Shown: positions 7,843 through 21,663 of the stretch, piece after piece
Position numbering within the stretch: position 1 is the first letter of the stretch
Layout of the letters: every line of letters starts with the position of its first letter
Position numbers and translations under genes: made by a program
Assembly: GCA_020846875.1 (NCBI GenBank)
Contig: JADLDB010000166.1
Span: 1-40,826, forward strand
Origin: Myxococcales bacterium
GTDB taxonomy: Bacteria > Myxococcota > Myxococcia > Myxococcales > Myxococcaceae
Reading direction: 5' to 3'
DNA: 40,826 nt
Notes under the pieces: generated by a model
What the model saw: the letters and a program-made list of their open reading frames with translations, nothing else
The model's database searches: none
Told to the model about the DNA's origin: nothing

Positions 7843-8589
7843 TCAGAAGGAGATTCCGCCGTCCACGTCGATCGTCTGGCCGGTGAAGTAGTCGCACTCC
7901 ACGATGAACTTCACCGCCTGCCAGATGTCCTCGGGCTGGCCGATGCGGCCGACGGGGATCTTGTCCACGAAGGCGGCCAGCGCCTTCTGGTTCATCCCCG
8001 CCGTCATCGGCGTCTCGATCATCCCCGGGGCCACCGCGCCGACGCGCACGCCGAAGGAAGCGAACTCGCGCGCCCAGGTGACGGTGTTGGCCGCCAGCGC
8101 CGCCTTGGCCGACACGTAGTTGGACTGCCCCCGGTTCCCGTGCCGGGCGATCGACGACATGTTGACGATCACCCCGGGGCGCTGCTCGGCGGCGACCATC
8201 TTCGCCGCCACCTCGCGCACCATCAGCGTGGCGCCGGTGAGGTTGACGTTGATCACCGCCAGGAACTGCTCGGTGGACATCTTCACCACCTGGCCGGTGG
8301 CCTTGTCCTTCTTCACCAACAGCCCGTCGCGCAGGATACCCGCGTTGTTGATGAGCCCGTTGAGGCCCTTCATCTGAGCGGCGGCCCAGTCGACGAAGGA
8401 CACCACGTCGGCCTCGTTGGAGACGTCCAGCTTGCGCCGGTGAATGCCCTTCGGCAGCGCCTCCAGCGCGGCCTCGTTCACGTCGCCCACCGTCACCTGC
8501 GCGCCGGCCTCCAACAGCCGCTTCGCGAAGTGCGCGCCCATGCCCTGGGCGCCGCCGGTGACGATCATCTTCATGTCCTTCAGTTGCAT
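7843..8589 (-). CDS. phaB: Short-chain dehydrogenase, PhaB/FabG-like 3-oxoacyl-CoA reductase
   Basis: 248 residues, standard SDR length. Cofactor motif TGGAQGMG at 11-18, NNAG at 81-84, catalytic Ser about 145, Tyr158 and Lys162 (YxxxK). The C-terminal VDGG is typical of FabG/PhaB reductases. Its likely role is NAD(P)H-dependent reduction of acetoacetyl-CoA to (R)-3-hydroxybutyryl-CoA, inferred from its place directly after a PHA synthase-like gene; a fatty-acid FabG role cannot be excluded by sequence. ATG 8589 has a strong AAGGAGAGG site (8592-8600) and overlaps the upstream gene's end by 10 bases. A terminator follows. Confidence 0.85.
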   Translation of the reverse strand: MQLKDMKMIVTGGAQGMGAHFAKRLLEAGAQVTVGDVNEAALEALPKGIHRRKLDVSNEADVVSFVDWAAAQMKGLNGLINNAGILRDGLLVKKDKATGQVVKMSTEQFLAVINVNLTGATLMVREVAAKMVAAEQRPGVIVNMSSIARHGNRGQSNYVSAKAALAANTVTWAREFASFGVRVGAVAPGMIETPMTAGMNQKALAAFVDKIPVGRIGQPEDIWQAVKFIVECDYFTGQTIDVDGGISF

Positions 8590-9563
8590 GTCCTCTCCTT
8601 CATCCAGGTGATCAGCGTGGGGTAGAGCTTCTGCGAGGCCTTGCTGCCGACGACGGCCCCGACGTGACCCCCGGGGACGTTGACGACCTGCGTGTTGCCT
8701 GCTCCCACGGCGGAATTCAAGGCGACCGCGGCGTTGGGCGGGCAGATGGTGTCCTTCTCGGCGGCGATGGTGAGGACCGGGCAGGTGATCTGCCTCAACT
8801 CGACGCGCTTGCCGGCGACCCAGTGCTTGCCCTGCACCAGCAGGTTCCGCTGGTACAGCTCGTCGATGTAGGTGGTGTACGCGGCCGCGGGGAAGGCGAC
8901 GTTGTCGTTGGCCCAGTGATCGAGCGCCTCGAAGGACGCGCGGAAGGCCGGATCGAACCACTTGTCCAGCACCCCGACCCACTTGGCGGCGTTCTGGGTG
9001 GGCCGGAGCAGCATGAAGCCGGCCTGCATCTGGTGCGGCGCAACATTGCCAGCCTCGGCGATCGCCTCCGCGTCGAACCAGCGGGGATCGGTCATGTGGC
9101 CCAGCATGCCGGCGTGGCTGAAGTCCACCGGCCCGAGCAGGTTGACGAAGCCGGCGTAGTGCTGCGGGTACAGCGCGGCGTGGACGGAGGAGAGAGTCGC
9201 GCCCATGCAGTAGCCCAGGACGGTGACGCGGCGCTTCCCCGTCTCGCGCCTCACCCGGCGGATCATCCGCTCGAGGCGGGCCACGGCCTCCTGCCAGGTG
9301 AAGTAGCGATCGTGCGCCTCGGGGGCGCCCCAGTCGAGGCACCAGGTGTCGAGGCCGGCGCCGACGAAGGACTCGGCCACCGAGCTGCCCTTGCGCAGAT
9401 CGAGCACGTACCAGCGGTTGATCATCGACGGCACGAGCAGCACGGGGGCCGCGTCGGCGGGCGTGGCGTTCCCTGCGGGGAGAAAGCGGTAGAGGCTGGC
9501 CGGGCCGTCTTCCAGCACGGTCGAGCGCGGGGTGGGCATGAGGGACGCGGGCGCTTGCAGCAC
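8580..9563 (-). CDS. phaC: PHA synthase-like protein (class III size), copy 1
   Basis: 327 residues with an alpha/beta-hydrolase fold. The nucleophile elbow is GYCMG with Cys119 replacing the lipase Ser, the hallmark of PHA synthases. Asp271 (AAEKDTICPP) and His300 (PGGHVG) complete the triad. LLVPSMINRWYVLDL and DWGAPE are family signatures. The length fits the catalytic subunit of class III/IV synthases (about 350), which need a small partner; the phasin gene upstream could supply it. The GTG start at 9563 has GGAG 8 bases upstream; the later ATG at 9539 has no such site. It polymerises 3-hydroxyacyl-CoA on granules. It overlaps the PhaB-like gene. Confidence 0.88.
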   Translation of the reverse strand: MLQAPASLMPTPRSTVLEDGPASLYRFLPAGNATPADAAPVLLVPSMINRWYVLDLRKGSSVAESFVGAGLDTWCLDWGAPEAHDRYFTWQEAVARLERMIRRVRRETGKRRVTVLGYCMGATLSSVHAALYPQHYAGFVNLLGPVDFSHAGMLGHMTDPRWFDAEAIAEAGNVAPHQMQAGFMLLRPTQNAAKWVGVLDKWFDPAFRASFEALDHWANDNVAFPAAAYTTYIDELYQRNLLVQGKHWVAGKRVELRQITCPVLTIAAEKDTICPPNAAVALNSAVGAGNTQVVNVPGGHVGAVVGSKASQKLYPTLITWMKERTCN

Positions 9564-9666: not shown

Positions 9667-9945
9667 TCAGCGGGCGTAGAAGTCCATCGCCTTCTTGCTG
9701 TTCTCCAGCGACAGCTTGCGGAAGTCGGCCGCCAGCTCGTTGACGTAGTTGAAGCCCGTCTTGGCGAACTCCGTCATCTCGTCGAGCTGGTTGTTGCCGA
9801 ACTCGATCCACTTCGCGTGGGCCTTCGCGGCCTCGTCGTACAGCTGGCCCAGGCGGGCGCCCTGATCCTCGACGGCCTTCTTCCAGTACTCCATGCCCGG
9901 AACGGCCTGCTGCACCTGCGAAGCCACGGTCTTGGTCTCAGCCAT
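9667..9945 (-). CDS. Phasin-like PHA granule protein
   Basis: 92 residues, all helical, no signal. Amphipathic heptad-like stretches (GMEYWKKAVEDQGARLGQLY, FAKTGFNYVNELAADFRKL) match phasin-family proteins that coat PHA granules and influence synthase activity. ATG 9945 is preceded by AGAGGA. The gene lies between the PhaR regulator and a PHA synthase-like gene on the same strand. It has its own promoter and an upstream candidate PhaR site, the classical arrangement in which PhaR represses phasin until granules titrate it away. It may instead act as the small subunit of the class III-like synthase. Confidence 0.8.
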   Translation of the reverse strand: MAETKTVASQVQQAVPGMEYWKKAVEDQGARLGQLYDEAAKAHAKWIEFGNNQLDEMTEFAKTGFNYVNELAADFRKLSLENSKKAMDFYAR

Positions 9946-10001
9946 TGTCTTTCCTCTTTCTGCGAGAGCATTCCGGGCGTCCAGTCGTCCGGAGCGGGCG
10001 C

Positions 10002-10029
10002 AATGTACGCAGCCGCAGCGCAGCGTCAA
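10002..10029 (-). promoter_or_regulatory. Promoter of the phasin gene
   Basis: On the minus strand TTGACG (10029-10024) and TACATT (10007-10002) are separated by 16 bases. The spacer is unusually TGC-rich (CTGCGCTGCGGCTGCG), which matters because characterised PhaR proteins bind TGC-rich DNA. The leader to the ATG at 9945 is about 50 bases. Confidence 0.6.
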
Positions 10030-10036
10030 GCGGAAT

Positions 10037-10052
10037 TTGGTGCAGCGCACAA
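10037..10052. promoter_or_regulatory. Candidate PhaR operator, phasin side
   Basis: TTGGTGCAGCGCACAA is an imperfect palindrome with core TGC-AGC-GCA. It matches the site at 10579-10594 at 14 of 16 positions when that site is read on the other strand. The CTGCN3GCAG-type recognition reported for PhaR of alphaproteobacteria shares the TGCN3GCA core. It ends 8 bases upstream of the phasin -35 element. Assignment to PhaR is inference. Confidence 0.5.
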
Positions 10053-10061
10053 CGACCGGTG

Positions 10062-10556
10062 TCATTTCCGGCGCTTGCCCAGCGATCTCTTCAGCTCGTC
10101 CAGCTCGCGGCGCAGCACGTCGACGTCGGACGGGGGCGGAGCCGGGGGAGCGGGCGCCAGCGCAGGCTGGGGCCACCCGCCGTAGCCCTGCCCTCCCGCC
10201 ATGAAGGAGGCCAGCTGCGCGAAGGGGTTGAAGGGCATGAGCGTCTGGCTGGTCTTCTTCGCCTGCAGGTAGAGTTCCAGCGCGCCCTGGACGTAGCGGC
10301 CGAGGAAGTCGGCCAGCACGTCGTCTCCGAGGCGAATCAGCTGGTGGAGCAGAGGCGCGGGCAGGAGCGTGTCGGCGCCCCGGCCCTCGATGATGATCTG
10401 CGTCAGCGTGGGCTGGGTGAGATCGGCGCCGCTCTTCGCATCCACCACCTTCACCTCCGCCCCGTCGCGGATCCGCTGGGTCAGATCCTCGAGGGTGATG
10501 TAGCGGCTGGACTCGGTGTCGTAGAGGCGGCGGTTTCCGTATTTCTTCACGAGCAT
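10062..10556 (-). CDS. phaR: PHA synthesis regulator PhaR
   Basis: 164 residues. The N-terminal 60 residues match the PHB/PHA accumulation regulator DNA-binding domain (LVKKYGNRRLYDTESSRYITL, with the typical VKKYxNRRLYDT block). The middle (about 65-115) resembles the PHB_acc domain that senses polymer or granules. A Pro/Ala-rich linker and a short C-terminal coiled coil (VDVLRRELDELKRSL) follow. Known family members repress phasin and often their own gene, and release DNA on binding PHA. It diverges from the lipoprotein gene at 10726. The 16-bp motif 22 bases upstream of its start suggests autoregulation. Confidence 0.92.
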   Translation of the reverse strand: MLVKKYGNRRLYDTESSRYITLEDLTQRIRDGAEVKVVDAKSGADLTQPTLTQIIIEGRGADTLLPAPLLHQLIRLGDDVLADFLGRYVQGALELYLQAKKTSQTLMPFNPFAQLASFMAGGQGYGGWPQPALAPAPPAPPPSDVDVLRRELDELKRSLGKRRK

Positions 10557-10578
10557 GGCAGCACCCTCTCACGTTGCC

Positions 10579-10594
10579 TTGTGCGCCGCAACAA
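10579..10594. promoter_or_regulatory. Candidate PhaR operator, phaR/lipoprotein divergent region
   Basis: On the minus strand this reads TTGTTGCGGCGCACAA, differing from the phasin-side copy at two of 16 positions, both outside the conserved TGC and GCA triplets. It is 22 bases upstream of the phaR start and 6 bases upstream of the -35 of the divergent operon, so one bound protein could affect both directions. Confidence 0.5.
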
Positions 10595-10600
10595 CAAGGC

Positions 10601-10629
10601 TTGACGGGCGCGCCGGCTTCGCGCATAAG
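10601..10629 (+). promoter_or_regulatory. Promoter of the lipoprotein/hydrolase/PHA gene run
   Basis: TTGACG at 10601-10606 and CATAAG at 10624-10629 are 17 bases apart. This gives a leader of about 90 bases before the GTG at 10726. It is the only good plus-strand promoter seen before the closely packed genes that run to 18201. Confidence 0.6.
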
Positions 10630-10725
10630 CGGCCCCGGCGTTTCGCGGGTGCACAATCGCGCCTGGTGCGGGTGGATTTCGGCGGAGCGGCGGCGTATGG
10701 GCACCTTTCTTCGGAGGTCTTCTCG

Positions 10726-11697
10726 GTGCGCTGTCTGAGTCTGTTCGCCTGTGCCGCCCTGGCGGGGTGCCCCGGGCCCTCCGTCGATTGTCGGGTGGGG
10801 GCCGACTGCGCCAGCGGCGTGTGCCGAAGCGACGGAACCTGCGCGCCGGTCGACGCGGGCGTGGGTGGAAGCGGTGGCGGCGAGACCGGCGGAGGAACGG
10901 GTGGCGGGGGCTCCTCCGGCGGCGGGATGGGAGGCGGCTCGGGCGACGGGGGCACTCCCGACGGCGGTACGGACGCTGGCATGCCCGTCGGCTGCCAGCC
11001 CAACCGCGACGGCGTGGTGCAGCGCAGCGAAATCTTCCTGCAGCCCGGGCTGCGCGCCACCTTCCTCACCAGCGGCGCCGCGACCTTCGACACCGCGGGC
11101 ACCGCGCAGGCGGACGGCGGGCGCTTCTGGGACTTCTCCACGGCGCTCTCGGGCGATGCGTCGAGGCTGGTGGAGACGCGCTCGGTGCAGGGCACCTGGT
11201 TCGAGGCCGAGTACCCCGACGCCGGCTACTACACCGAGCTCGGCCAGGGCACGGAGCTGCTGGCCGTCTTCGGCGCCACCCCCGACGGCCTCTACCTGCA
11301 GGGCGTGGTGAGCACCACCGACGATCTCTTCTCCACCCGCGTGCGCTACTCGCCGTGGGTGAAGGTGCTGCAGTTCCCCCTGCGATCCGGCGACACCTGG
11401 TCCACCACCACCAGCGTCAGCGGCCGGTTCAACGGCGTCGTCCTCGGCATCCAGAGCGAGACGTACGCCTCGCAGGTGGACCGCGTGGGCGACGCGAAGA
11501 CGCCGTACGCCACCTTTGGCTCGCTGCGGGTGCGAACGGTGATGAACCGGACGATCAACTTCGTGCCCACGCTCACCCTGCGCACCTTCACCTGGGTGAC
11601 CGAGTGCTTCGGCTCCATCGCCACCGCACAGTCGCAGGACAACGAGACCTCCACCGAGTTCACCGACGTGAAGGAAGTGCGGAGGCTGTCCCCGTGA
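10726..11697 (+). CDS. Lipoprotein with Cys-rich head and Gly-rich linker, paralogue A
   Basis: 323 residues from GTG 10726, which has GGAGGT at 10713-10718. The signal ends in LAGC (Cys15). A short Cys-rich motif follows (VGADCASGVCRSDGTCAP), then a Gly-rich linker (45-85) typical of myxobacterial surface lipoproteins. From Cys90 (CQPNRDGVVQRSE) to the end (ECFGSIATAQSQDNE) it parallels the lipoprotein encoded at 14165, so the two are paralogues. The body looks beta-rich. Function unknown; exported and lipid-anchored by prediction. It is the first gene of a unit and its TGA overlaps the next GTG (GTGA). Confidence 0.8.
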   Translation: MRCLSLFACAALAGCPGPSVDCRVGADCASGVCRSDGTCAPVDAGVGGSGGGETGGGTGGGGSSGGGMGGGSGDGGTPDGGTDAGMPVGCQPNRDGVVQRSEIFLQPGLRATFLTSGAATFDTAGTAQADGGRFWDFSTALSGDASRLVETRSVQGTWFEAEYPDAGYYTELGQGTELLAVFGATPDGLYLQGVVSTTDDLFSTRVRYSPWVKVLQFPLRSGDTWSTTTSVSGRFNGVVLGIQSETYASQVDRVGDAKTPYATFGSLRVRTVMNRTINFVPTLTLRTFTWVTECFGSIATAQSQDNETSTEFTDVKEVRRLSP

Positions 11698-12584
11698 TCC
11701 GCGCGCTCGCCCACGCCTCCCTGTTCCTGGCGCTGGCGGGCTGCCTGTCGTTCCACAACGGCCCCATGCCGGGCGAGCCGGACAAGGCCACCTTCACCCA
11801 GGTGGAGGGCACCCGGGTGCGCTACCTGGACGTGGGCCAGGGTCCGCCGGTGGTGCTGCTGCACGGCTTCGCCTCGTCCATCGAGAACTGGGCGCTCGTC
11901 ATCCCTGAGCTCTCCAAGACTCACCGGGTGATCGCGCTCGACCTGCGCGGCTTCGGCTGGACCGATCGGCCGGTCGCCGACTACTCGCCTGCGGCCCAGG
12001 CGGCGATGGTGAAGGCGCTGCTGGACGAGCGCGGCGTGGGGCCGGCGGCGATCGTCGCCCACTCCTGGGGCTCGTCGGTGGCCCTGGCCTTCGCGCTGGC
12101 ACACCCGGACCGCGTGACGAAGGTGGCCCTGTACGACGCCTGGGTCTACGAGGATCAGCTGCCGTCGATGTTCCACCTCTCCCGCGCCAAGGGGCTGGGC
12201 GAGGTGTTGTTCGCCCTCTTCTATTCTCAGCGCGCGGACGAGCGGATCACCCAGGGCTTCTACGATCCCTCCGTCGTCACCCAGCAGCTCGTCGACGACG
12301 TGGAGGTCGCCTTCGCGCGGCCCGGCACGAAGGCGGCGGCGCTGGCCACGGTGCGAGGCATGGACTTCACCGAGGTAGAGGCGAAGTACTCCTCCATCAA
12401 GGCCCCCACCCTGCTCCTCTTCGGCCGCGAGGACGTGGTGACACCGCCTTCGATCGGCGAGCGGCTGGTGCGGCAATTGCCCAACGCGAAGCTGATCGTC
12501 TACCCGCGCTGCGGCCACTTCCCCATGCTGGAGGCGGCCCCCGAGTCCACCCGCGAGCTGCTCCGCTTCCTGGAGGCGCCGTGA
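11694..12584 (+). CDS. Lipoprotein alpha/beta hydrolase
   Basis: 296 residues from GTG 11694, coupled to the previous gene by a GTGA overlap. The signal ends in LAGC (Cys17), so the enzyme should face the periplasm or cell surface. The catalytic triad is Ser124 in AHSWGSS, Asp247 (GREDVVTPP) and His275 (CGHFPM); the oxyanion motif is LLHGFASS. This is the epoxide-hydrolase/haloperoxidase-like branch of the superfamily; the substrate cannot be read from sequence. Its place between lipoprotein and outer-membrane genes in a run that ends in PHA genes raises ester or oligomer cleavage as a possibility. That is inference only. Confidence 0.85.
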   Translation: MIRALAHASLFLALAGCLSFHNGPMPGEPDKATFTQVEGTRVRYLDVGQGPPVVLLHGFASSIENWALVIPELSKTHRVIALDLRGFGWTDRPVADYSPAAQAAMVKALLDERGVGPAAIVAHSWGSSVALAFALAHPDRVTKVALYDAWVYEDQLPSMFHLSRAKGLGEVLFALFYSQRADERITQGFYDPSVVTQQLVDDVEVAFARPGTKAAALATVRGMDFTEVEAKYSSIKAPTLLLFGREDVVTPPSIGERLVRQLPNAKLIVYPRCGHFPMLEAAPESTRELLRFLEAP

Positions 12585-14161
12585 AGCGCCTCCTCGCCGC
12601 GCTGGCCTTCGCGCTCGCAGCAAACGCCTCCGCCAGCGGCCTGGCCGATCACGGCGAGGATCTGTTCAAGCGCGAAGAGACGACGGTGAAGCTGACCGGC
12701 TTCTTCCGGGTCCGCGGCGACTGGCTTCACAACCTCGATCTGGATCGCGGCACCACCCCGTCGGGCCGGCCGCTGTACCCCGTACCGCTGGGCGATCCGA
12801 CCGCGCAGGACCTGTTCGTCGCCGACATGCGGCTGCGCACGGATCTGGCCATCTACGCGCCGTTCGCGGCCGCGGCGGTGAAGGTGCGCGCCGACCTGGT
12901 CGACGACCTGGTGCTGGGATCCACGCCGGCGCTCTCACCCGGCACGGGCACTGCGCCCACGCCAGCCGCGTCCCCCGGGCAGGTGCCCAACACGCTGCTG
13001 CGGATCAAGCGCGCCTACGGCGAGGTGCTGACGCCGATCGGCTACTTCGCCGCGGGCCGCATGGGGAACCTGTGGGGCCTGGGCATGTACGCCAACGGCG
13101 GCGACTGCCTGGACTGCAACCTCGGCGATCAGGCGGATCGCCTCGCCTTCGTCACCGCCATCGCCGGGCACCTGTGGGCCTTCGCCTACGACTTCAGCTC
13201 GGTGGCGCCCACCCAGTTGCGCAAGGACTCGCAGCGATCCCTGGTGTTCGATCCGTCCTCCAACGTCTCGTCCTTCACCTTCGCGCTGATGAACATCAAG
13301 GATCCGCTGGCCCGCGAGCGGCGGCGCAAGGCGGGCCGCTGGACCTTCGAGTACGGCGCCTACCTCTCCTACCGCTGGCAGAAGAACGACATCCCCGAGG
13401 CGTACCTGGTGGTGGCCCAGCCGCGGGCGTTGACGCCCTCCTCGGTGATGGAGCGCGGCTTCCGCGCGGGCGTGGTGGACGGCTGGTTCCGCCTGCAGAC
13501 GCCGCTGTTCCGGCTGGAGGCCGAGGCCGCCTTCGTGCTGGCCGAGTCAGCCCAGGCCTCGCTCATCCCCGGGGCGCTGCTGCGCGATCCGGTGCAGGCC
13601 TTCCAGGCGGGCGCGGCGGTGGAGCTGCAGTTCGGCACCGAGGCAGACTTCTTCACCGGCGGCGTCAACACCGGCCTCGCCAGCGGCGATCCCGCGCCCG
13701 GCTTCGGCGCCTTCCCTCCGTCGGGCAGCACGCCGACTCCCGGTGAGCTCGACGCGCCCCAGGTGGATGTGCCGCGCGACGTGCGGGTGGACAACTTCCG
13801 CTTCCACCCCGACTACCGGATCGATCGCATCCTCTTCGCGGAGATCATCGGCACCGTCACCGACGCCTTCTACGTGAAGCCCTGGGCCCGGGCGCGACTG
13901 CTGCAATTCACCAGCTCACAGCTAGGCCTCAAGGTGGACGGGACGCTGACCCGCGCGCTGTTCGCGTCCTCGACGCCGGGCAACGACGCGTCCCTGGGGG
14001 TGGAGCTGCACGCCGCGCTCTCGTGGGACAGCAAGGACGGCTTCGACGTGCTGGCCGAGTACGCGGTCCTCTTTCCCCTGGCTGGCCTGGACAACCCGGC
14101 GCAGGGACTCTCCGCCCAGCCGGCACAACTGGGCCGCGTTCGCCTGGCCTGGAGGTTCTGA
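12581..14161 (+). CDS. Outer-membrane-type beta-barrel protein (TIGR04551-like)
   Basis: 526 residues from GTG 12581, overlapping the hydrolase stop as GTGA. An N-terminal signal peptide (KRLLAALAFALAANASAS) lacks a lipobox. The body alternates hydrophobic and polar residues in strands with aromatic girdles (LTGFFRVRGDWLHN, WTFEYGAYLSYRWQ, FDVLAEYAVLFPL) and ends in Phe (VRLAWRF), as outer-membrane barrels do. It resembles the TIGR04551 family of Myxococcota, which has no established function; that assignment is from memory and moderate. A pair of cysteines (GGDCLDCN) is unusual for a barrel. Neighbouring lipoproteins may form a complex with it. Confidence 0.72.
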   Translation: MKRLLAALAFALAANASASGLADHGEDLFKREETTVKLTGFFRVRGDWLHNLDLDRGTTPSGRPLYPVPLGDPTAQDLFVADMRLRTDLAIYAPFAAAAVKVRADLVDDLVLGSTPALSPGTGTAPTPAASPGQVPNTLLRIKRAYGEVLTPIGYFAAGRMGNLWGLGMYANGGDCLDCNLGDQADRLAFVTAIAGHLWAFAYDFSSVAPTQLRKDSQRSLVFDPSSNVSSFTFALMNIKDPLARERRRKAGRWTFEYGAYLSYRWQKNDIPEAYLVVAQPRALTPSSVMERGFRAGVVDGWFRLQTPLFRLEAEAAFVLAESAQASLIPGALLRDPVQAFQAGAAVELQFGTEADFFTGGVNTGLASGDPAPGFGAFPPSGSTPTPGELDAPQVDVPRDVRVDNFRFHPDYRIDRILFAEIIGTVTDAFYVKPWARARLLQFTSSQLGLKVDGTLTRALFASSTPGNDASLGVELHAALSWDSKDGFDVLAEYAVLFPLAGLDNPAQGLSAQPAQLGRVRLAWRF

Positions 14162-14164
14162 CTC

Positions 14165-14995
14165 GTGAGGACGTTCCCGCTCATCGCCCTCGCTCTCTTC
14201 GCCGCGTGCGGCCCCAACCGCACGCACCCGGACCGGGACGCCTACCAGCCCGCCGAGGTGGTGCCGCTGGAGTGCGTGCCCAACCTGGACGGGGTGATCG
14301 AAGCCACCGAGCTCAAGACGGCCTTCGGCGTCCCTGTCTCCTACCTGGTGAACCCCGCGGGGGGCACGCGGCCGGTGGACGTGGTGGGGGCGGTGAACCC
14401 GCAGGGCCAGCTCGTGTGGGACTACGCGGTGGACTACGCCGATGATCAGGTGGCGAAGCTCCAGGCCGCGGCGCCGGCCGGCAAGTGGTGGGCGTCGTCC
14501 TTCCCCGCGGCGCAGTTCACCACCCCGCTCGATCTCGGCGGGCGCATCGACGGCGTGTACTCCAACGACGGCTCCAACCTGCTGCTGCTGGGCTACGCGT
14601 CCAGCGTGGAGAGCCCGCCCGAAGGAAAGACGCTGGTCATCTACACCCAGCCGGTGGCGATCTTCCGCTTCCCGCTGCAGGCCCCGAAGGAGTGGATCAG
14701 CGTGGGCGAGGTGCGCAACGCCACCGTGCGAGGCCTGCCCTTCGCCGGGCGCGACACCTACACCATCAAGGTGGACGCCGCGGGGATCATGGAGCTGCCG
14801 GACCTCTCCTTCACCCAGGCGCTGCGGGTGCGCACCACCACCCTCATCGAGCCGTCGGTGGGCGCCTCCATCGTCCGCCGGCAGGTGGGCTGGGTGTTCG
14901 AGTGCTTCGGCGAAGTGGCCCGGGCCACCGCCCCTGACAACGAGATGAACGACGACTTCACCACCGCCGCCGAGCTTCGTCGGCTCGGCCTCTGA
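14165..14995 (+). CDS. Lipoprotein, paralogue B
   Basis: 276 residues from GTG 14165, three bases after the barrel gene's stop. The signal ends in FAAC (Cys15). It lacks the Gly linker of paralogue A but shares its start block (C37, CVPNLDGVIEATEL against CQPNRDGVVQRSEI) and its end block (ECFGEVARATAPDNE against ECFGSIATAQSQDNE), with the same distance logic between them. The family is unknown. The pairing of two paralogous lipoproteins around a hydrolase and a barrel suggests a four-part envelope assembly. The PHA genes follow after 32 bases on the same strand. Confidence 0.75.
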   Translation: MRTFPLIALALFAACGPNRTHPDRDAYQPAEVVPLECVPNLDGVIEATELKTAFGVPVSYLVNPAGGTRPVDVVGAVNPQGQLVWDYAVDYADDQVAKLQAAAPAGKWWASSFPAAQFTTPLDLGGRIDGVYSNDGSNLLLLGYASSVESPPEGKTLVIYTQPVAIFRFPLQAPKEWISVGEVRNATVRGLPFAGRDTYTIKVDAAGIMELPDLSFTQALRVRTTTLIEPSVGASIVRRQVGWVFECFGEVARATAPDNEMNDDFTTAAELRRLGL

Positions 14996-15027
14996 TTGAG
15001 AAACCAACGACGAGAAGGAGCACGACA

Positions 15028-15321
15028 ATGGACCTTTGGGATTCGTGGAAGAAGGGCTTCGACGCCTGGGAGAACCGCACCGCCGCGCTCATGGAGCAGG
15101 TGCTGAAGAGCGAGTCGGTGTTGATGCCGATGGGGGCGCTCCTGACCGCGACGATGAAGGCGAAGGCCGCGTCCGACAAGGCGATCGCCGAGACCTGGGA
15201 GCGCATGGGCCTGCCCACGCGCCGTGATCAGGAGCGCACGCTGCACGCGCTCAACCAGATCCAGAGCCGGCTCATCGATCTGGAGGAGAAGCTGGACGCG
15301 CTGGAGAAGAACCGGAACTGA
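15028..15321 (+). CDS. PhaE/phasin-like small PHA protein
   Basis: 97 residues, helical, no signal, with GAAGGAG before the ATG. The N-terminus WDSWKKGFDAWENRTAALME is amphipathic. The C-terminus GLPTRRDQERTLHALNQIQS leads into a coiled coil; LPT/S-R followed by a heptad tail is a known ending of PhaE and related phasins. It probably acts as the small partner of the PHA synthase two genes downstream, or as a granule coat protein. It has only general similarity to the phasin at 9667, so each synthase has its own small neighbour. Confidence 0.72.
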   Translation: MDLWDSWKKGFDAWENRTAALMEQVLKSESVLMPMGALLTATMKAKAASDKAIAETWERMGLPTRRDQERTLHALNQIQSRLIDLEEKLDALEKNRN

Positions 15322-15361
15322 GTCGACCGAGGGGACGCCCCTCACCGCAGCGGAGTCGCAC

Positions 15362-17092
15362 ATGGACATCACCCCCTACCTCGAGCTCAAGCCCGCCCCG
15401 CGCTCCGTCTTCGACAGCCTGGCGGAGCGTTCCACCCGCGTCCGCTTCATGCTCCCCACACCCGACGGAGACTGGAAGGCCGTCACCTGGGGCGCGTACG
15501 CGAAGATGATCAAGCACGCGGCGCTCTTCCTCGCCTCGGCGGGCCTCAAGTCCGGCGATCGCGCGGCGATCTTCGCGCCCAACGCGGTGGAGTGGATCAG
15601 CGCGGCGATGGCGATCGAGTCGGCCGGCGGGGTGCTGGTGCCGATCTACCCAGCCAACACCGCGCCGCAGGCGGCCTACGTCGTCTCCCACTCGGATACG
15701 AAGATCCTCTTCGTGGACACGCCGGCGCTGCTCTCGCGCGTCTTCGAAGCGTGGGGCGACTACGCGCAGGTGAGCACCATCGTGACGCTCTCGCAGCTGG
15801 AGGCGGGGCCGATCATCGAGGCCCTGCGCGCGAAGGGCGTGACGGTGCCGCCGGTGGCCGAGGTGGAGCGCAAGCTGGTCACCTGGAGCAAGGTGCAGTC
15901 CCTCGGCGCCGCGCGCGACCAGGAGGCCCCGCAGGAGTTTGGGCGCCTGCTCGACTCGGTGTCGCTCGATCAGGTCGCGCAGATGCTCTACACCAGCGGC
16001 ACCTCGGGCAACCCCAAGGGAGTGCCCCTCACCCACCGCAACGTCGGCATCAACGGGCAGGACTGGCTCAAGTGCAACGCGCCGCTGCTCGAGGAGAACG
16101 ACGTCGATCTGATGTGGCTGCCGATGAGCCACATCTTCGGCTTCGGCGAGGCGTGCCTGGGCAACACCTTCGGGTGGACCACCTACATGACCGATCCGGT
16201 CAACGTGATGAAGCTGCTCCCCGTGGTGCGGCCCACCGTGTTCATGAGCGTTCCCGTGCTGTGGGAAAAGCTGGCCATGGCGGCGGCCACCGAGGCGGAT
16301 CCGGCGAAGCGGCGCGCGAAGCTCGCCGAGGGCACGGGTGGCAACCTGCGCTTCTGCCTGTCCGGCGGCGCGGGCCTCAAGCGCGAAGTGAAGGACCTGT
16401 TCCACCAGAACGGCCAGCTGATCGTCGAGGGGTACGGCCTGACGGAGTGCTCGCCGACGCTCACCTTGAACCGCCCCGACGCCTTCCGGTTCGACTCGGT
16501 GGGCAAGGTGCTGCCGTCGGTGCAGGTGAAGCTGGCGGAGGACGGGGAGATCCTCGCGAAGGGGCCCAACGTCTTCTCCGGGTACCACAAGGATCCTTCC
16601 GCCACGAAGGAGGCCTTCACCGACGACGGCTGGTTCAAGACCGGCGACGTGGGTCGCTTCACCGACGACGGCTTCCTGCAGATCATCGATCGCAAGAAGG
16701 ACATCCTGGTCACCGCGGGTGGAAAGAACGTGCCGCCAGCGAACATCGAGCTCCGCTTCCGGGACGATCCCCTCATCGCCCACGTGGTGGTGTACGGCGA
16801 CGCGAAGCGCTACCTGGTCGCGGGTGTGTGGCTCAACGACGCCGCGGTGGCGGCGCACCTGAAGCAGCAGGGGGTGAATGACTCCGGGAAGGCCGAGGCG
16901 ACCAAGGCGCTGATCCAGAAGCGGCTCGACGAGGTCAACGCGCAGTTGGCCAGCTTCGAGTCGTTGAAGAAGTTCGTGATCATCGACACGCCGCTGACCG
17001 TGGAGGGCGGGCTCTTGACCAGCACCCTCAAGGTCCGGCGCAAGCAGGTGTACCAGGCCTTCGGCAAGAAGTTCGAGGAGCTCTACGAATGA
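15362..17092 (+). CDS. Long-chain acyl-CoA ligase (AMP-forming)
   Basis: 576 residues of the ANL superfamily. P-loop YTSGTSGNPKG at 210-220, GYGLTE at 357-362, and the C-terminal hinge and catalytic region GWFKTGDVG, IDRKKDILVTAGGKNVPP are intact. It activates a fatty or 3-hydroxy acid to its CoA thioester through an acyl-AMP intermediate. Set between a PhaE-like gene and a PHA synthase gene, it probably supplies or salvages monomers, which is inference. ATG 15362 has GGAG 7 bases upstream; its last bases overlap the synthase start (ATGA). Confidence 0.9.
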   Translation: MDITPYLELKPAPRSVFDSLAERSTRVRFMLPTPDGDWKAVTWGAYAKMIKHAALFLASAGLKSGDRAAIFAPNAVEWISAAMAIESAGGVLVPIYPANTAPQAAYVVSHSDTKILFVDTPALLSRVFEAWGDYAQVSTIVTLSQLEAGPIIEALRAKGVTVPPVAEVERKLVTWSKVQSLGAARDQEAPQEFGRLLDSVSLDQVAQMLYTSGTSGNPKGVPLTHRNVGINGQDWLKCNAPLLEENDVDLMWLPMSHIFGFGEACLGNTFGWTTYMTDPVNVMKLLPVVRPTVFMSVPVLWEKLAMAAATEADPAKRRAKLAEGTGGNLRFCLSGGAGLKREVKDLFHQNGQLIVEGYGLTECSPTLTLNRPDAFRFDSVGKVLPSVQVKLAEDGEILAKGPNVFSGYHKDPSATKEAFTDDGWFKTGDVGRFTDDGFLQIIDRKKDILVTAGGKNVPPANIELRFRDDPLIAHVVVYGDAKRYLVAGVWLNDAAVAAHLKQQGVNDSGKAEATKALIQKRLDEVNAQLASFESLKKFVIIDTPLTVEGGLLTSTLKVRRKQVYQAFGKKFEELYE

Positions 17093-18201
17093 AGCGGATC
17101 ACCAACCTGCTGGGCCTTCTCACCCGGCCGAAGCCCCAGGTGGGCCTGACGCCCGCCGACGAGGTCTTCGCCGAGAACAAGTGGCGGCTCTTGCGCTACC
17201 GCGCGCGCCCCGAAGGGTTGGCCTTCCACACCCCGATCCTCCTGGTGCCGTCGCTGATCAACCGGCACTACGTGCTGGATCTGATGCCCGGGAAGTCCTT
17301 CGCCGAGTACCTGGTGGCGCAGGGCTTCGACGTCTTCTGCATCGACTGGGGCACCCCCGGGGACGAAGACCGCTTCGTCACCTTCGACGACGTGGTGGAC
17401 GGCTACCTGGGCCGCGCGATCCGCCAGGCCGCCAGGCACGCGCCGGGCGAGCAGGTGCACCTGCTGGGCTACTGCATGGGTGGATCGCTCGCCGCCATCC
17501 ACGCGGCGGTGCACCCGGATCGGCTCGCCAGCTTCGTCGCCCTCGCCGCGCCCGTCCGCTTCAAGGACGACGGCCTCCTGTCGCGGTGGACCAACACCAG
17601 GGGCTTCGACGTGGACGTGCTGGTGAGCGCCGCGGGCAACGTGCCCTGGCAGTTGATGCAGTCGGCGTTTCACCTGCTGCGGCCGACCCTCACCCTGTCC
17701 AAGGCGGTGATGCTGATCGACCGGGCGTGGAACGACGAGTTCCTCGACGGCTTCCTCGCCCTCGAGACGTGGGGCAACGACAACGTGTCCCTGCCGGGGG
17801 AGTTCTACCGGACGTACATCCGCGCGCTGTACCAGGACGACGGGCTGGTCTCCGGGCGCTTCGCGCTGCGCGGACGGAAGGTGGACTTGAAGAACCTCAC
17901 CTGCCCCACGCTGGCCGTCACCTTCGAGCACGACTCCATCGTCCCGGCCGCCAGCGCCGCGGTGCTGCTCGAGGTCGCCGGCGCGAAGGTAAAGCAGCAC
18001 CTCCACCTGCCGGGCGGACACGTCGGCGCGGTGGTGTCGAAGCACGCCGCCAAGACGCTGTGGCCGCAGCTCACGGCCTTCTTCGTGCAGCACGAGGTGC
18101 GGGCGAAGGCCGGCACTCCGGCGCCCGCCAAGGCGACCGAGAAGCCCGCGGCGAAGAAGGTGAAGCGGCCAGTGCCCAGGGAGGGCCGGGCGCGCAGCTG
18201 A
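17089..18201 (+). CDS. phaC: PHA synthase (class III-like catalytic subunit), copy 2
   Basis: 370 residues. Nucleophile elbow GYCMGG with Cys129, Asp282 (FEHDSIVP) and His311 (LPGGHVG) form the synthase triad. LLVPSLINRHYVLDL and IDWGTPGDEDR are family hallmarks also present in copy 1. The last 40 residues are a Lys/Ala/Pro tail (TPAPAKATEKPAAKKVKRP), not usual for the family, which could bind nucleic acid or granule surface. ATG 17089 overlaps the ligase stop (ATGA), indicating coupled translation. It polymerises 3-hydroxyacyl-CoA, probably with the PhaE-like protein. It converges with the cyclase gene, 3 bases apart. Confidence 0.9.
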   Translation: MKRITNLLGLLTRPKPQVGLTPADEVFAENKWRLLRYRARPEGLAFHTPILLVPSLINRHYVLDLMPGKSFAEYLVAQGFDVFCIDWGTPGDEDRFVTFDDVVDGYLGRAIRQAARHAPGEQVHLLGYCMGGSLAAIHAAVHPDRLASFVALAAPVRFKDDGLLSRWTNTRGFDVDVLVSAAGNVPWQLMQSAFHLLRPTLTLSKAVMLIDRAWNDEFLDGFLALETWGNDNVSLPGEFYRTYIRALYQDDGLVSGRFALRGRKVDLKNLTCPTLAVTFEHDSIVPAASAAVLLEVAGAKVKQHLHLPGGHVGAVVSKHAAKTLWPQLTAFFVQHEVRAKAGTPAPAKATEKPAAKKVKRPVPREGRARS

Positions 18202-18204
18202 CAC

Positions 18205-20757
18205 TCAATCGTCGGACGGGCCGTCGTACACGCCGTCCCAGGTGTCGGCTGGCCCCCGCACCGCGTAGTGCTGGCAGCGCCTCACGTACCGCGCGACCAC
18301 CATGTCCTTTGGCCGCGCTTCGGCCAGCGCCTTGAAGCCCGCCAGCGCGTCGGTGAAGCGGCGCTCACGCCACGCGATCAGCGCCTTCTCGAAGTCCATC
18401 AGCCAGCCGGCCTCCGTCTTCGAGTCCTCCTCGCGGCCGATCAGCTCGAAGATCTTCACCGGGGCAGAGGCCCGCCCCAGCCGCAGCAGATCGACCTGCC
18501 GGAAGCGGAAGCCTTCCCCCGCCTCCACCACCACCTCCTCGCCCACCAGGATCGCCGCGCCGTAGCGCTTGGCCAGCGCCTCCAGCCGGAAGGCCGTCGC
18601 CACCGGCTCGCCCATCACCGTGTAGTTGATCCGGTGGATGGTGCCCATCTCCCCCACCACCGTGGGGCCCGTCTCGATGCCCGCGCGCATGAAGAGGCTG
18701 CGGCCCAGCGCCTTCTCCCAGGCCTCCCGCTTCGCCTCGAACTTGTCGCGCATCTCGAGCGCCGCCTCACACGCCACCGCGGCCTGGGTGGGCAGCTCCA
18801 CCGGCGCGCCCCAGAAGCACATCAACCCGTCGCCCAGGTACTTGTCGACGTGGCCGGCGCTGTCGACGATCACCGGCGTCATCTCGGTCAGGTACTCGCG
18901 CAGCGCCTGCACCACGTCCTCGGGATCCTTCTCCTGCGCCACCGCGGTGAAGCCTTCGATGTCGCTGACGTAGATGGTCAGCTCCCGGCGCTCCGGGTGC
19001 AGCCGCGCCAGATCCCGCTCCACCTTGCGGAACACGTCAGCGCGCACCGCGCCGCCCAGGGCGCGCACCACGAATTCACGCAGGCTCTGCTCCAGCGCCC
19101 GCGCGTAGCCCAGGGACGCGAAGAACGTCAGCGCGCAGGCGAGCAACGGCGTGGCCATGGCCACCCACCGCTGCTGCGAGACGAGCATCTGCCGGGCCAC
19201 CAGCGCGTAGAGCGCCGCCACCACGGCGATCGTCACCACCCACGCCAGCCACCCCGGCCGGCGCACCAGGCTGGACCAGGCCAGCGCCAGCACCGCGCCG
19301 ACAAAGGCGAAGATCACCGTCAGCCACAGATCCAACTCCGGGGGCACCCGCTGGATCCCCTGGCTGCGGAGCAGATCGACGATCGTCTGCGCGGTGATCG
19401 CCGCGCGGGACATGGCCCCCACCGGTGTCTGAACGCGGCGGCCCTCGTCTCCCCGCTCGTCGGCGAAGACCACTACCCGCCCGGACAGCTCGTTGTCGTG
19501 GTGCCGCACGCCGCGCGCCGCCTCGTCGTCGCGCCGGTTGACCAGCAGCCGCCACGCGGGGATCGCCCGCTTCATCGGCCCCCGGCTCCCGGCAGAGGCC
19601 TCGTCGTCCGAGAAGCGCAATACGAGGAATCCCTGCGCGTCGATGGGGACCGAGAACTTCCCCACCTCCAGGCGCCCGTCGGTCACCTTGAGCTCCGTGG
19701 TCTCGGCCAGCCGCATCGCCGCCTGCAGCGCCACGGCCCCCATGGACACCCTTCGGCCGTCACGCTCCGTCCCCGCCACCAACAGGGGCGTCGCGCGCAC
19801 CACCCGATCCGCGTCGGCCAGCTCCGAGATCGCCCCGAGTCCCGCTTTCCCGGTGAGCAGCGGCGGCACCGGCACGTCCAGGGACACCGCGCGGGGCAGC
19901 GCGTCTACGTCCAGCCCCACCACCTTCACGGTCGCCAGCTGACGCGCCAGCCACTCGCGATTGACCGCCCACGCGTCGTCTCCCGGCGTCAGCGGGCGCA
20001 GCACGGCGCTCCCCGGCACGTCCAGCGCCGCAGCCAGTTCGCGCCCCTTCGCTTCGCTGGAGGCGCCGGCCCACACCAGCCGGCGATCGCCCGCCTCCTC
20101 GACCCACGCCGGAACCTGACGTGTGAGGACTCGCTGCACCACCGGCAGCGCCGCGGCCGGCGTGCCCACGTCCGCCACCTTCACCAGGTAGGGCAGCAGC
20201 GCCCGCTCCGGGAGCCGGCGCTGCCGGCCGGACCACTCGAAGCCGAGGATCACCTTCCCCGCGTTCTTCTCGAGGTAATCGGCGAAGAGCTCGTCGTCTC
20301 CCTTCCGGTTCTCCCCGCGGCCCTGGGTGAAGCGATGAGGGGACACATCGGCGAGCGACTCGTCCACCACCACCAGGGACGCACCTTCCTTCAGGGCCTG
20401 ATCCACCAACTGCCCCATCAGCTCGCGAGGCCAGGGCCGCATCGCCCACTCCGGGCGCTCCGACTCGCGGGCGTTCACCATCGTCTCTTCGTCGACGGTG
20501 ACCAGCACCACGTCGTCCACCCGCTCGGACGCGGCGCCCAGCTCGCGGGCTCGCCAGTCGTAGGTGGCCCACTCCAGCCGCTCCACCCACAGGCGCAGCA
20601 CCGCGTGCCAGCGGGGATCCTCGCCCAGCTCGGTCCGCTGCAGCCGGTACCAGGCGATCGGCGCCAACAGCCCCCCGAAGACGAAGGCCCAGAAGAAGGC
20701 CACGCCGAACTTGCGGACCAGGTGCAGGGTCGTCGAAGGAAGGGGGTTCGTCGCCAC
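18205..20757 (-). CDS. CHASE2 adenylate/guanylate cyclase
   Basis: About 850 residues. One N-terminal membrane segment (about 17-36), an extracytoplasmic CHASE2 sensor (about 45-470), three membrane helices (about 478-495, 503-521, 531-550), then a class III cyclase domain (about 590-775). Metal-binding Asp599 (SDIEGF) and Asp643 (LGDG) are present, and Lys639/Thr713 fit ATP specificity. However, the usual VN asparagine is Ala720 (EPVATAFRLE), so activity may be impaired. A short helical tail follows. GTG 20757 is the best available start, lacking a clear ribosome site; TTG or a later GTG (20703) are alternatives. Only 27 bases separate it from the divergent lipoprotein gene. Confidence 0.85.
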   Translation of the reverse strand: MATNPLPSTTLHLVRKFGVAFFWAFVFGGLLAPIAWYRLQRTELGEDPRWHAVLRLWVERLEWATYDWRARELGAASERVDDVVLVTVDEETMVNARESERPEWAMRPWPRELMGQLVDQALKEGASLVVVDESLADVSPHRFTQGRGENRKGDDELFADYLEKNAGKVILGFEWSGRQRRLPERALLPYLVKVADVGTPAAALPVVQRVLTRQVPAWVEEAGDRRLVWAGASSEAKGRELAAALDVPGSAVLRPLTPGDDAWAVNREWLARQLATVKVVGLDVDALPRAVSLDVPVPPLLTGKAGLGAISELADADRVVRATPLLVAGTERDGRRVSMGAVALQAAMRLAETTELKVTDGRLEVGKFSVPIDAQGFLVLRFSDDEASAGSRGPMKRAIPAWRLLVNRRDDEAARGVRHHDNELSGRVVVFADERGDEGRRVQTPVGAMSRAAITAQTIVDLLRSQGIQRVPPELDLWLTVIFAFVGAVLALAWSSLVRRPGWLAWVVTIAVVAALYALVARQMLVSQQRWVAMATPLLACALTFFASLGYARALEQSLREFVVRALGGAVRADVFRKVERDLARLHPERRELTIYVSDIEGFTAVAQEKDPEDVVQALREYLTEMTPVIVDSAGHVDKYLGDGLMCFWGAPVELPTQAAVACEAALEMRDKFEAKREAWEKALGRSLFMRAGIETGPTVVGEMGTIHRINYTVMGEPVATAFRLEALAKRYGAAILVGEEVVVEAGEGFRFRQVDLLRLGRASAPVKIFELIGREEDSKTEAGWLMDFEKALIAWRERRFTDALAGFKALAEARPKDMVVARYVRRCQHYAVRGPADTWDGVYDGPSDD

Positions 20758-20784
20758 CGGGGGCAAGACTATGCTGCTCCGGAC

Positions 20785-21663
20785 ATGAAGACCCCTTCCA
20801 ATCTCGTCCGCCTCACGCTCTGCCTGGCTCTGCTCCTCCTCATCCCCGCGGCGTGCGATCTGAACCAGTTGACCGCCAGCGAAGTGGCGGTGGCCACGGT
20901 GCTGTCCACCCCACCGATCGAGCTGCGGGGCGAGGCGGTGGCGGGCCAGGGCCTCGACGCCGGCCTGCCGGCCCTCGACGGCGGGCTGCCCTTCGACGCG
21001 GGCGTGACGATCCCCAAGCAGACGCTGGTGACGCTGTACTTCGGGAACAAGGGGCCGGGCCTCGATCAGGCGCCCACGGGCATCACCGGCGCGAGCGTCA
21101 CGCTGCAGGAGGTGGGCGGCCCCACCTTCACCCTCGAGGAGGTCGGCGACGGCACCTACGCGCTGGGGGATGCGGGCTTCGCGTACAAGAGCGGCGCCAC
21201 CTACGACTTCAGCATCGCCCACAACAACGCCACCTACCTGGCCGAGGTGGCCAACGTGCCGCAGGAGGAGCGGGTGCCGCAGTTCCACCCTGCCGCCGGC
21301 TACGTGGAGCTCACCGCGGGCCAGCCGTTTGCCTTCACCCGGCCCGAGCCGCCCGCCGGGCAGAACAGCCCGCTGGGCTTCGTGAGCGTCTTCCCGGTGG
21401 ACTCGTCGAGCGGCAAGGGAGACCCCACCTACACCAACCTGCCGCAGACGCCGCTGCAGTTCCTCAAGCTGGTGGTGGCGCCTGGCGACTGGACGAAGCA
21501 GCAGATGGAGATCCCGGGCACCGCCTTCCCTCTGCCGGACAAGAACTACGTGATCATCCTGCAGTCCGCGAAGCTGGGCGGCCCCAAGTCCAGCAACCTC
21601 TTCACCGGCAGCGCGATCATCGCCGGCGCGGCGGACGTGGCGATCGTCAAGACGAGGCCCTGA
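20785..21663 (+). CDS. Lipoprotein, unknown function
   Basis: 292 residues. A hydrophobic signal (LTLCLALLLLIPAAC) gives a lipid-acceptor Cys24; the lipobox has Pro at -3, which is atypical. The mature part carries an Asp-Ala-Gly segment (GLDAGLPALDGGLPFDAG), then a beta-rich region resembling carboxypeptidase-regulatory or Ig-like folds (GASVTLQEVGGPTFTLEEV). No enzyme motif is seen. It diverges closely from the CHASE2 cyclase gene, so the two may be co-regulated, possibly a surface protein paired with its sensor. The long antisense frame upstream of 20785 is not part of it. Confidence 0.72.
   Translation: MKTPSNLVRLTLCLALLLLIPAACDLNQLTASEVAVATVLSTPPIELRGEAVAGQGLDAGLPALDGGLPFDAGVTIPKQTLVTLYFGNKGPGLDQAPTGITGASVTLQEVGGPTFTLEEVGDGTYALGDAGFAYKSGATYDFSIAHNNATYLAEVANVPQEERVPQFHPAAGYVELTAGQPFAFTRPEPPAGQNSPLGFVSVFPVDSSSGKGDPTYTNLPQTPLQFLKLVVAPGDWTKQQMEIPGTAFPLPDKNYVIILQSAKLGGPKSSNLFTGSAIIAGAADVAIVKTRP

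Follow-up and report, generated by a model that had tools for sequence, protein, structure and literature searches.

The window analysed here is the whole of contig C166, a 40,826-nt stretch of a 7.06-Mb genome from the myxobacterial order. Seven genes, designated A to G, follow one another on its forward strand from 10726 to 18201, overlapping or lying no more than 40 bp apart, with a PHA gene group on the opposite strand across the spacer preceding A (Table 1). Re-reading of the window showed the gene order and the coordinates proposed for A-G in the first-pass annotation to be correct. The junctions, described there as gaps of 40 bases or less with three GTGA/ATGA overlaps, measure -4, -4, +3, +32, +40 and -4 bp. 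A gene for a CHASE2-adenylate/guanylate cyclase (18205-21195) is convergent to G; it adjoins G in genomes G096 and G105 as well, and not generally.

Table 1. Features of the A-G locus. Positions are those of the window unless preceded by the name of another locus.
Feature	Position	Strand	Description
phaB	7843..8589	-	Acetoacetyl-CoA reductase-like SDR; adh_short_C2 4e-47
phaC1	8580..9563	-	Second PHA synthase; TIGR01836 1e-66
Phasin-like small protein	9667..9945	-	Position beside phaR conserved; no Pfam match
phaR	10062..10556	-	Divergent regulator gene; PHB_acc_N 1.3e-26
PhaR-type operator (predicted)	10578..10594		CTTGTGCGCCGCAACAA; exact match to YTKNTGCRNYGCANMAR (PMC12849132)
Promoter toward A	10601..10629	+	TTGACG, 17 bp, CATAAG
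Second conserved element	10672..10697	+	GTGGATTTCG-N10-GGCGTA; one exact genome copy
Gene A	10726..11697	+	Lipoprotein; 4-Cys N-terminal segment, Gly/Asp-rich linker, C-terminal domain common to D
Junction A/B	11694-11697		GTGA overlap
Gene B	11694..12584	+	Lipoprotein alpha/beta hydrolase; Abhydrolase_1 5.5e-35
Junction B/C	12581-12584		GTGA overlap
Gene C	12581..14161	+	Outer-membrane barrel, TIGR04551 family, PHA-linked subfamily; C-terminal aromatic residue
Junction C/D			Gap of 3 bp
Gene D	14165..14995	+	Lipoprotein, paralogue of A core domain
Junction D/E			Gap of 32 bp
Gene E	15028..15321	+	97-aa PhaE-like protein; PF09712 29.5 bits (cut-off 25.7)
Junction E/F			Gap of 40 bp
Gene F	15362..17092	+	AMP-forming acyl-CoA ligase; AMP-binding 1.5e-65, AMP-binding_C_3 6e-09
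Junction F/G	17089-17092		ATGA overlap
Gene G	17089..18201	+	PHA synthase PhaC2, class III-like; TIGR01836 7e-84
MFS gene	L087:5302-6498
MFS gene	L097:5178-6395
MFS gene	L138:5099-6424

Control region and transcription of the unit

Exact matches to the published PhaR operator consensus, YTKNTGCRNYGCANMAR (PMC12849132), occur four times in the 7-Mb genome, one of them in the spacer between phaR and A; the other three lie at G000:C62:24841-24857, C66:25822-25838 and C174:4032-4048. When 47 phaR-A spacers were compared, a 17-bp palindrome (TTGTTGC-RNY-GCAACAA) scored above 8 bits in 45 of them, against 0.75 in shuffles, the motif having been fitted on the same 47 spacers that were then scored. 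Its centre falls mostly 13-17 bp upstream of the -35 start, with a second group positioned 42-51 bp downstream. A TTGAC sequence is oriented toward A in 46 of the 47 spacers and toward phaR in four; a -10-like hexamer is found 16-18 bp from it in 33 spacers (0.84 in shuffles). This conservation backs both the single promoter and the PhaR-type operator that had been proposed ahead of A. The GTGGATTTCG-N10-GGCGTA element further downstream also directly precedes A in many close relatives, and in genome G110 it precedes E.

The locus combines two features expected of a PhaR regulon, a linked PHB_acc_N-type PhaR and a consensus-matching operator at the promoter. The arrangement is unlike the PhaR-controlled phaP1 phasin promoter of Ralstonia eutropha (PMC12849132) in that envelope genes would be driven besides PHA genes. 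We infer that PhaR acts on the unit as a repressor.

A scan of positions 9900-18500 returned no forward promoter satisfying the consensus rule, while a scan of the same segment for terminators gave four sites against 3.1 expected by chance, none of them between C and F. Both scans are empty between 14161 and 15028, the interval in which a promoter or terminator would have spoken for two separate units, and they revealed no signal of its own for E-G between C and E. An Rfam search of the region gave no match.

Conservation of the unit across the Myxococcota

Every one of 117 genomes of the order encodes a member of TIGR04551, in most cases with an identity to C of about 35%. In contrast, the distinct subfamily to which C belongs (48-71% identity) occurs in 11 of the 117. 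Orthologues of PhaC2 (at least 60% identity) are likewise found in 11 genomes, ten of which also carry the C subfamily; in nine of these ten, the two genes share a contig and are separated by about 2.9 kb, as in the window. In the tenth, G008, they are on separate contigs, with A-E on one and F-G on the other. The core TIGR04551 paralogue, of which all 117 genomes have a family member, is found at G000:C9:181322-182908 (617.5 bits); its neighbours on contig C9 are housekeeping-like and uninformative.

A wider set of loci was collected by a profile search with D only, over one genome per species in about 85,000 species. Since the search used D alone, the resulting set is not biased toward PHA genes. 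It yielded 78 loci, all from Myxococcota-type organisms, including Minicystis rosea DSM 24000, Sandaracinus, Labilithrix, and Kofleriaceae and Bradymonadaceae records; in the wider phylum, 35 of 195 genomes carry D. Eleven gene profiles were then run over the 78 loci, each count taking in only loci with enough DNA. The A-B-C-D block is intact in every scorable locus (C in 75/75, B in 70/70, A in 62/62). E follows D in 67 of 76 loci, F is present in 56 of 64 and G in 48 of 56; phaR lies close by in 52 of 53 and is divergent in 50. Median intergenic gaps across the loci amount to a few bases, and D identity falls as low as about 40%. An all-against-all comparison of the other open frames revealed no similar conservation in the flanks of the block. 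Chance adjacency is therefore rejected, the block being kept across the phylum while the flanks vary. Distance correlations between genes range from 0.4 to 0.8; as no species tree entered the calculation, they carry little weight. The link between the envelope genes and phaC across the Myxococcota is supported by these counts, E-F-G following D in most loci. The proposal that envelope and PHA genes belong to a single unit, conserved and under joint regulation, which is a candidate for an undescribed system, is strongly supported.

Variant loci produced a more detailed picture. In L103, L106 and L096, E-F-G are missing after D and a different PhaC/PhaZ-like gene lies between phaR and A, only 5 bp from A in L103; L106 and L096 have an additional ligase-like and synthase-like gene upstream. 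L143 carries a weak PhaC-like gene (26 bits) immediately 3' of D, and in G025 two copies of D and a phasin-like frame precede a gene similar to it (read by eye). Because these PhaC-like genes are not orthologous to G and yet adjoin A-D in all five cases, they support the tie of A-D to PHA. In Minicystis rosea, A to F are present, phaB comes next after E-F, and the synthase lies across phaR. L126 keeps phaR and lacks E-F-G. No PHA gene is seen in L101, L104, L118 or L156, though in these four the DNA ends on the side where phaR is expected. G110 apparently has E-F-G without A-D, with a membrane protein of no Pfam family in their place and a contig break in between, which suggests that the two halves are separable. 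Six loci (L087, L094, L097, L102, L129 and L138) contain mutually related MFS-type frames between phaR and A. The three that were scored are MFS_1 members, and their nearest models are organic-anion symporters, far under the cut-offs. In the majority of loci, no gene for an inner-membrane transporter is linked to the unit.

The encoded proteins

Pfam and NCBIfam searches confirmed the identities of B, E, F and G, whereas Pfam has no family for A or D, nor for C even at E up to 1, so that C has no OprD or FadL family match. A PHROGs search with A, C, D and E gave no match either. Sequence comparison showed A and D to be paralogous, with 29% identity at E 7e-30 and a probability of 100 in the profile-profile alignment, a point absent from the first-pass annotation; relative to D, A carries an additional Cys-rich segment and linker. 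The lipobox of A is LAGC, its Cys being present in 63 of 64 aligned rows. In D, the lipobox Cys15 is found in 77 of 78 rows, and Cys37, Asp42, Gly43 and Cys247 in all 78. Both proteins have a CxPNxDGxIxxxE-type motif, like a partial EF-hand loop (14273-14311 in D, 10993-11031 in A), and a common second invariant Cys close to the C-terminus. The model of D (pLDDT 82) aligns in VIA-align to YmcC-like lipoproteins with borderline Z of 7-8.6 (best 8.6: 4.2 A over 169 residues); Foldseek found nothing below E 0.04.

In B, the lipobox Cys17 and the Ser124-Asp247-His275 residues are invariant among 66 homologues. Scores against curated PHA depolymerase models do not reach the cut-offs (81.4 of 300 bits for NF050089, 38.5 of 250.6 for TIGR02240). 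Its PDB matches include the alpha/beta hydrolase 6i8w, which we take to be the membrane phospholipase PlaF. In six loci (L148, L150, L151, L153, L154 and L155) B seemed at first sight to be lost; it is present there, fused in frame to C within a single open frame (for example, L153:7374-10016) that reads lipobox-hydrolase-linker-barrel. These fusions argue for B acting at barrel C. If the barrel is oriented as is normal for its kind, the hydrolase would lie on the periplasmic side.

C scores 301.8 bits against TIGR04551, just over the curated cut-off of 300. Its low-confidence model (pLDDT 59.6) resembles 18-strand porins, MOMP and Occ/OprD giving Z of 16-17.6 and the exporter AlgE about 15; Foldseek puts AlgE first, while VIA-align puts the Occ/OprD and MOMP porins above it. 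On this model, the predicted 18-strand barrel would be like the substrate-specific porins of the Occ/OprD and BenF type (Z up to 17.6), from which C differs by its membership of TIGR04551.

The PHA part of the locus is like class III PHA synthase operons in its PhaC Cys-Asp-His residues, PhaE-like partner, PhaR-type operator and nearby phaR, phasin-like and phaB genes. Unlike in these operons, four envelope genes come first, an acyl-CoA ligase gene separates phaE from phaC, and G, at 281.7 bits, is under the curated TIGR01836 cut-off of 365.3. E, at 97 aa, falls short of the PhaE subunit of about 40 kDa typical of class III: it aligns to positions 230-304 of 311 in the PhaE family model, that is, to the C-terminal part only. 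This smallness is conserved (median 97 aa across 69 loci) and unusual for a PHA synthase partner; no solved structure is related to E by sequence. The catalytic Cys129-Asp282-His311 of G is invariant among 55 homologues. The best family matches of F are long-chain fatty-acid ligases. A PhaC-like hydrolase is also paired with an acyl-CoA ligase in the NCBIfam PRK07868 fusions, presumably mycobacterial; here, F and G are separate genes, and G scores only 69.5 bits against PRK07868.

A possible route from external esters to storage polyester

At the level of sequence, the unit and its predicted control by PhaR are well supported, as are its conservation, the operator, the promoter, the intact catalytic residues and the fusion of B to C. 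We hold the conserved, PhaR-linked unit with high confidence, and uptake into storage with moderate confidence. As for the complete scheme, in which A-G are a PhaR-controlled operon leading from the capture of external esters to storage polyester, we give it an even chance. Formation of polyester granules would cause PhaR to leave the DNA, relieving the promoter ahead of A. Lipoprotein hydrolase B, held at barrel C, would cleave an ester at the outer membrane, and the barrel, possibly with lipoproteins A and D, would pass the released acid. An inner-membrane transporter, part of the unit in some loci, would import the acid, ligase F would convert it to a CoA ester, and mini-PhaE E and synthase G would polymerise this product. 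PHA synthases use hydroxyacyl-CoA as substrate, hence the simplest substrate of F, and probably the one taken up, is a hydroxyacid. Import is favoured by the presence of ligase F, by the MFS gene that some loci add and by the porin-like fold predicted for C. Against the pathway stand the generic nature of B as an alpha/beta hydrolase and of F as an acyl-CoA ligase, and the weak model of C, which the exporter AlgE matches too, together with the apparent separation of the halves in G110 and the lack of a linked transporter in most loci.

PhaR regulons include genes beyond PHA metabolism (PMC12542648), and A-D could be a general nutrient uptake system that shares the PhaR promoter and handles a substrate that is no PHA precursor. 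The lack of specific features in B and F and the splitting of the two halves in G110 would fit such coupling by regulation only. However, the genes share one unit phylum-wide, only a few bases apart and with ligase and synthase among them, and the module recurs next to non-orthologous PhaC-like genes, which makes this rather doubtful. The envelope set might also work outward, exporting or processing polyester oligomers or hydroxyacids at the surface, for example to build a matrix or to supply short-chain PHB to the envelope: AlgE is the first Foldseek match of C, and an ester leaving through the barrel could be trimmed by the lipoprotein hydrolase located there. We consider this direction unlikely, since an ATP-using acyl-CoA ligase suits import, the VIA-align ranking favours Occ/OprD and MOMP, and no polymer exporter for the inner membrane is linked.

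Scavenging of lipids would make B a phospholipase- or lipase-like enzyme and F a fatty-acid ligase whose acyl-CoA reaches PHA indirectly, via beta-oxidation. The family matches of F and the similarity of B to 6i8w agree with this. Like FadL-FadD uptake with secreted lipases, the unit has a hydrolase, an outer-membrane channel and an acyl-CoA ligase in series; unlike it, all are joined in a single unit with a PHA synthase under PhaR control. There is no FadL-type channel, beta-oxidation gene or phaJ in the unit, and lipid scavenging appears quite improbable.

Ester capture into storage, our preferred reading, can be extended, albeit tentatively, to the phylum as a whole: an outer-membrane esterase-porin complex would capture hydroxyacids that feed storage polyester directly, with granule formation inducing the unit via PhaR. 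Such acids might include (R)-3-hydroxyacids derived from the polyester or the lipid A of prey. The A-G unit is found in a Bradymonadaceae MAG (L144), and in Bradymonas, from a neighbouring predatory group, PHA builds up during predation (PMC7460792). Most Myxococcota bins from activated sludge are reported to contain PHA genes (PMC11821767).

The individual parts are of known kinds. What looks new is the way they are combined and the constancy of this combination across the phylum, along with the mini-PhaE and the fusions of hydrolase to barrel. Our search of the open-access literature found no paper on TIGR04551 or on an envelope-PHA operon. PHA synthesis is usually regarded as intracellular and supplied by central metabolism, and the unit suggests an undescribed route linking the cell surface to carbon storage. 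Cultured carriers exist, such as Minicystis rosea. If the route is real, it may provide enzymes for polyester production from external acids, it would give functions to families that have none (the A/D lipoproteins and TIGR04551), and it would explain how predatory Myxococcota store the carbon of their prey.
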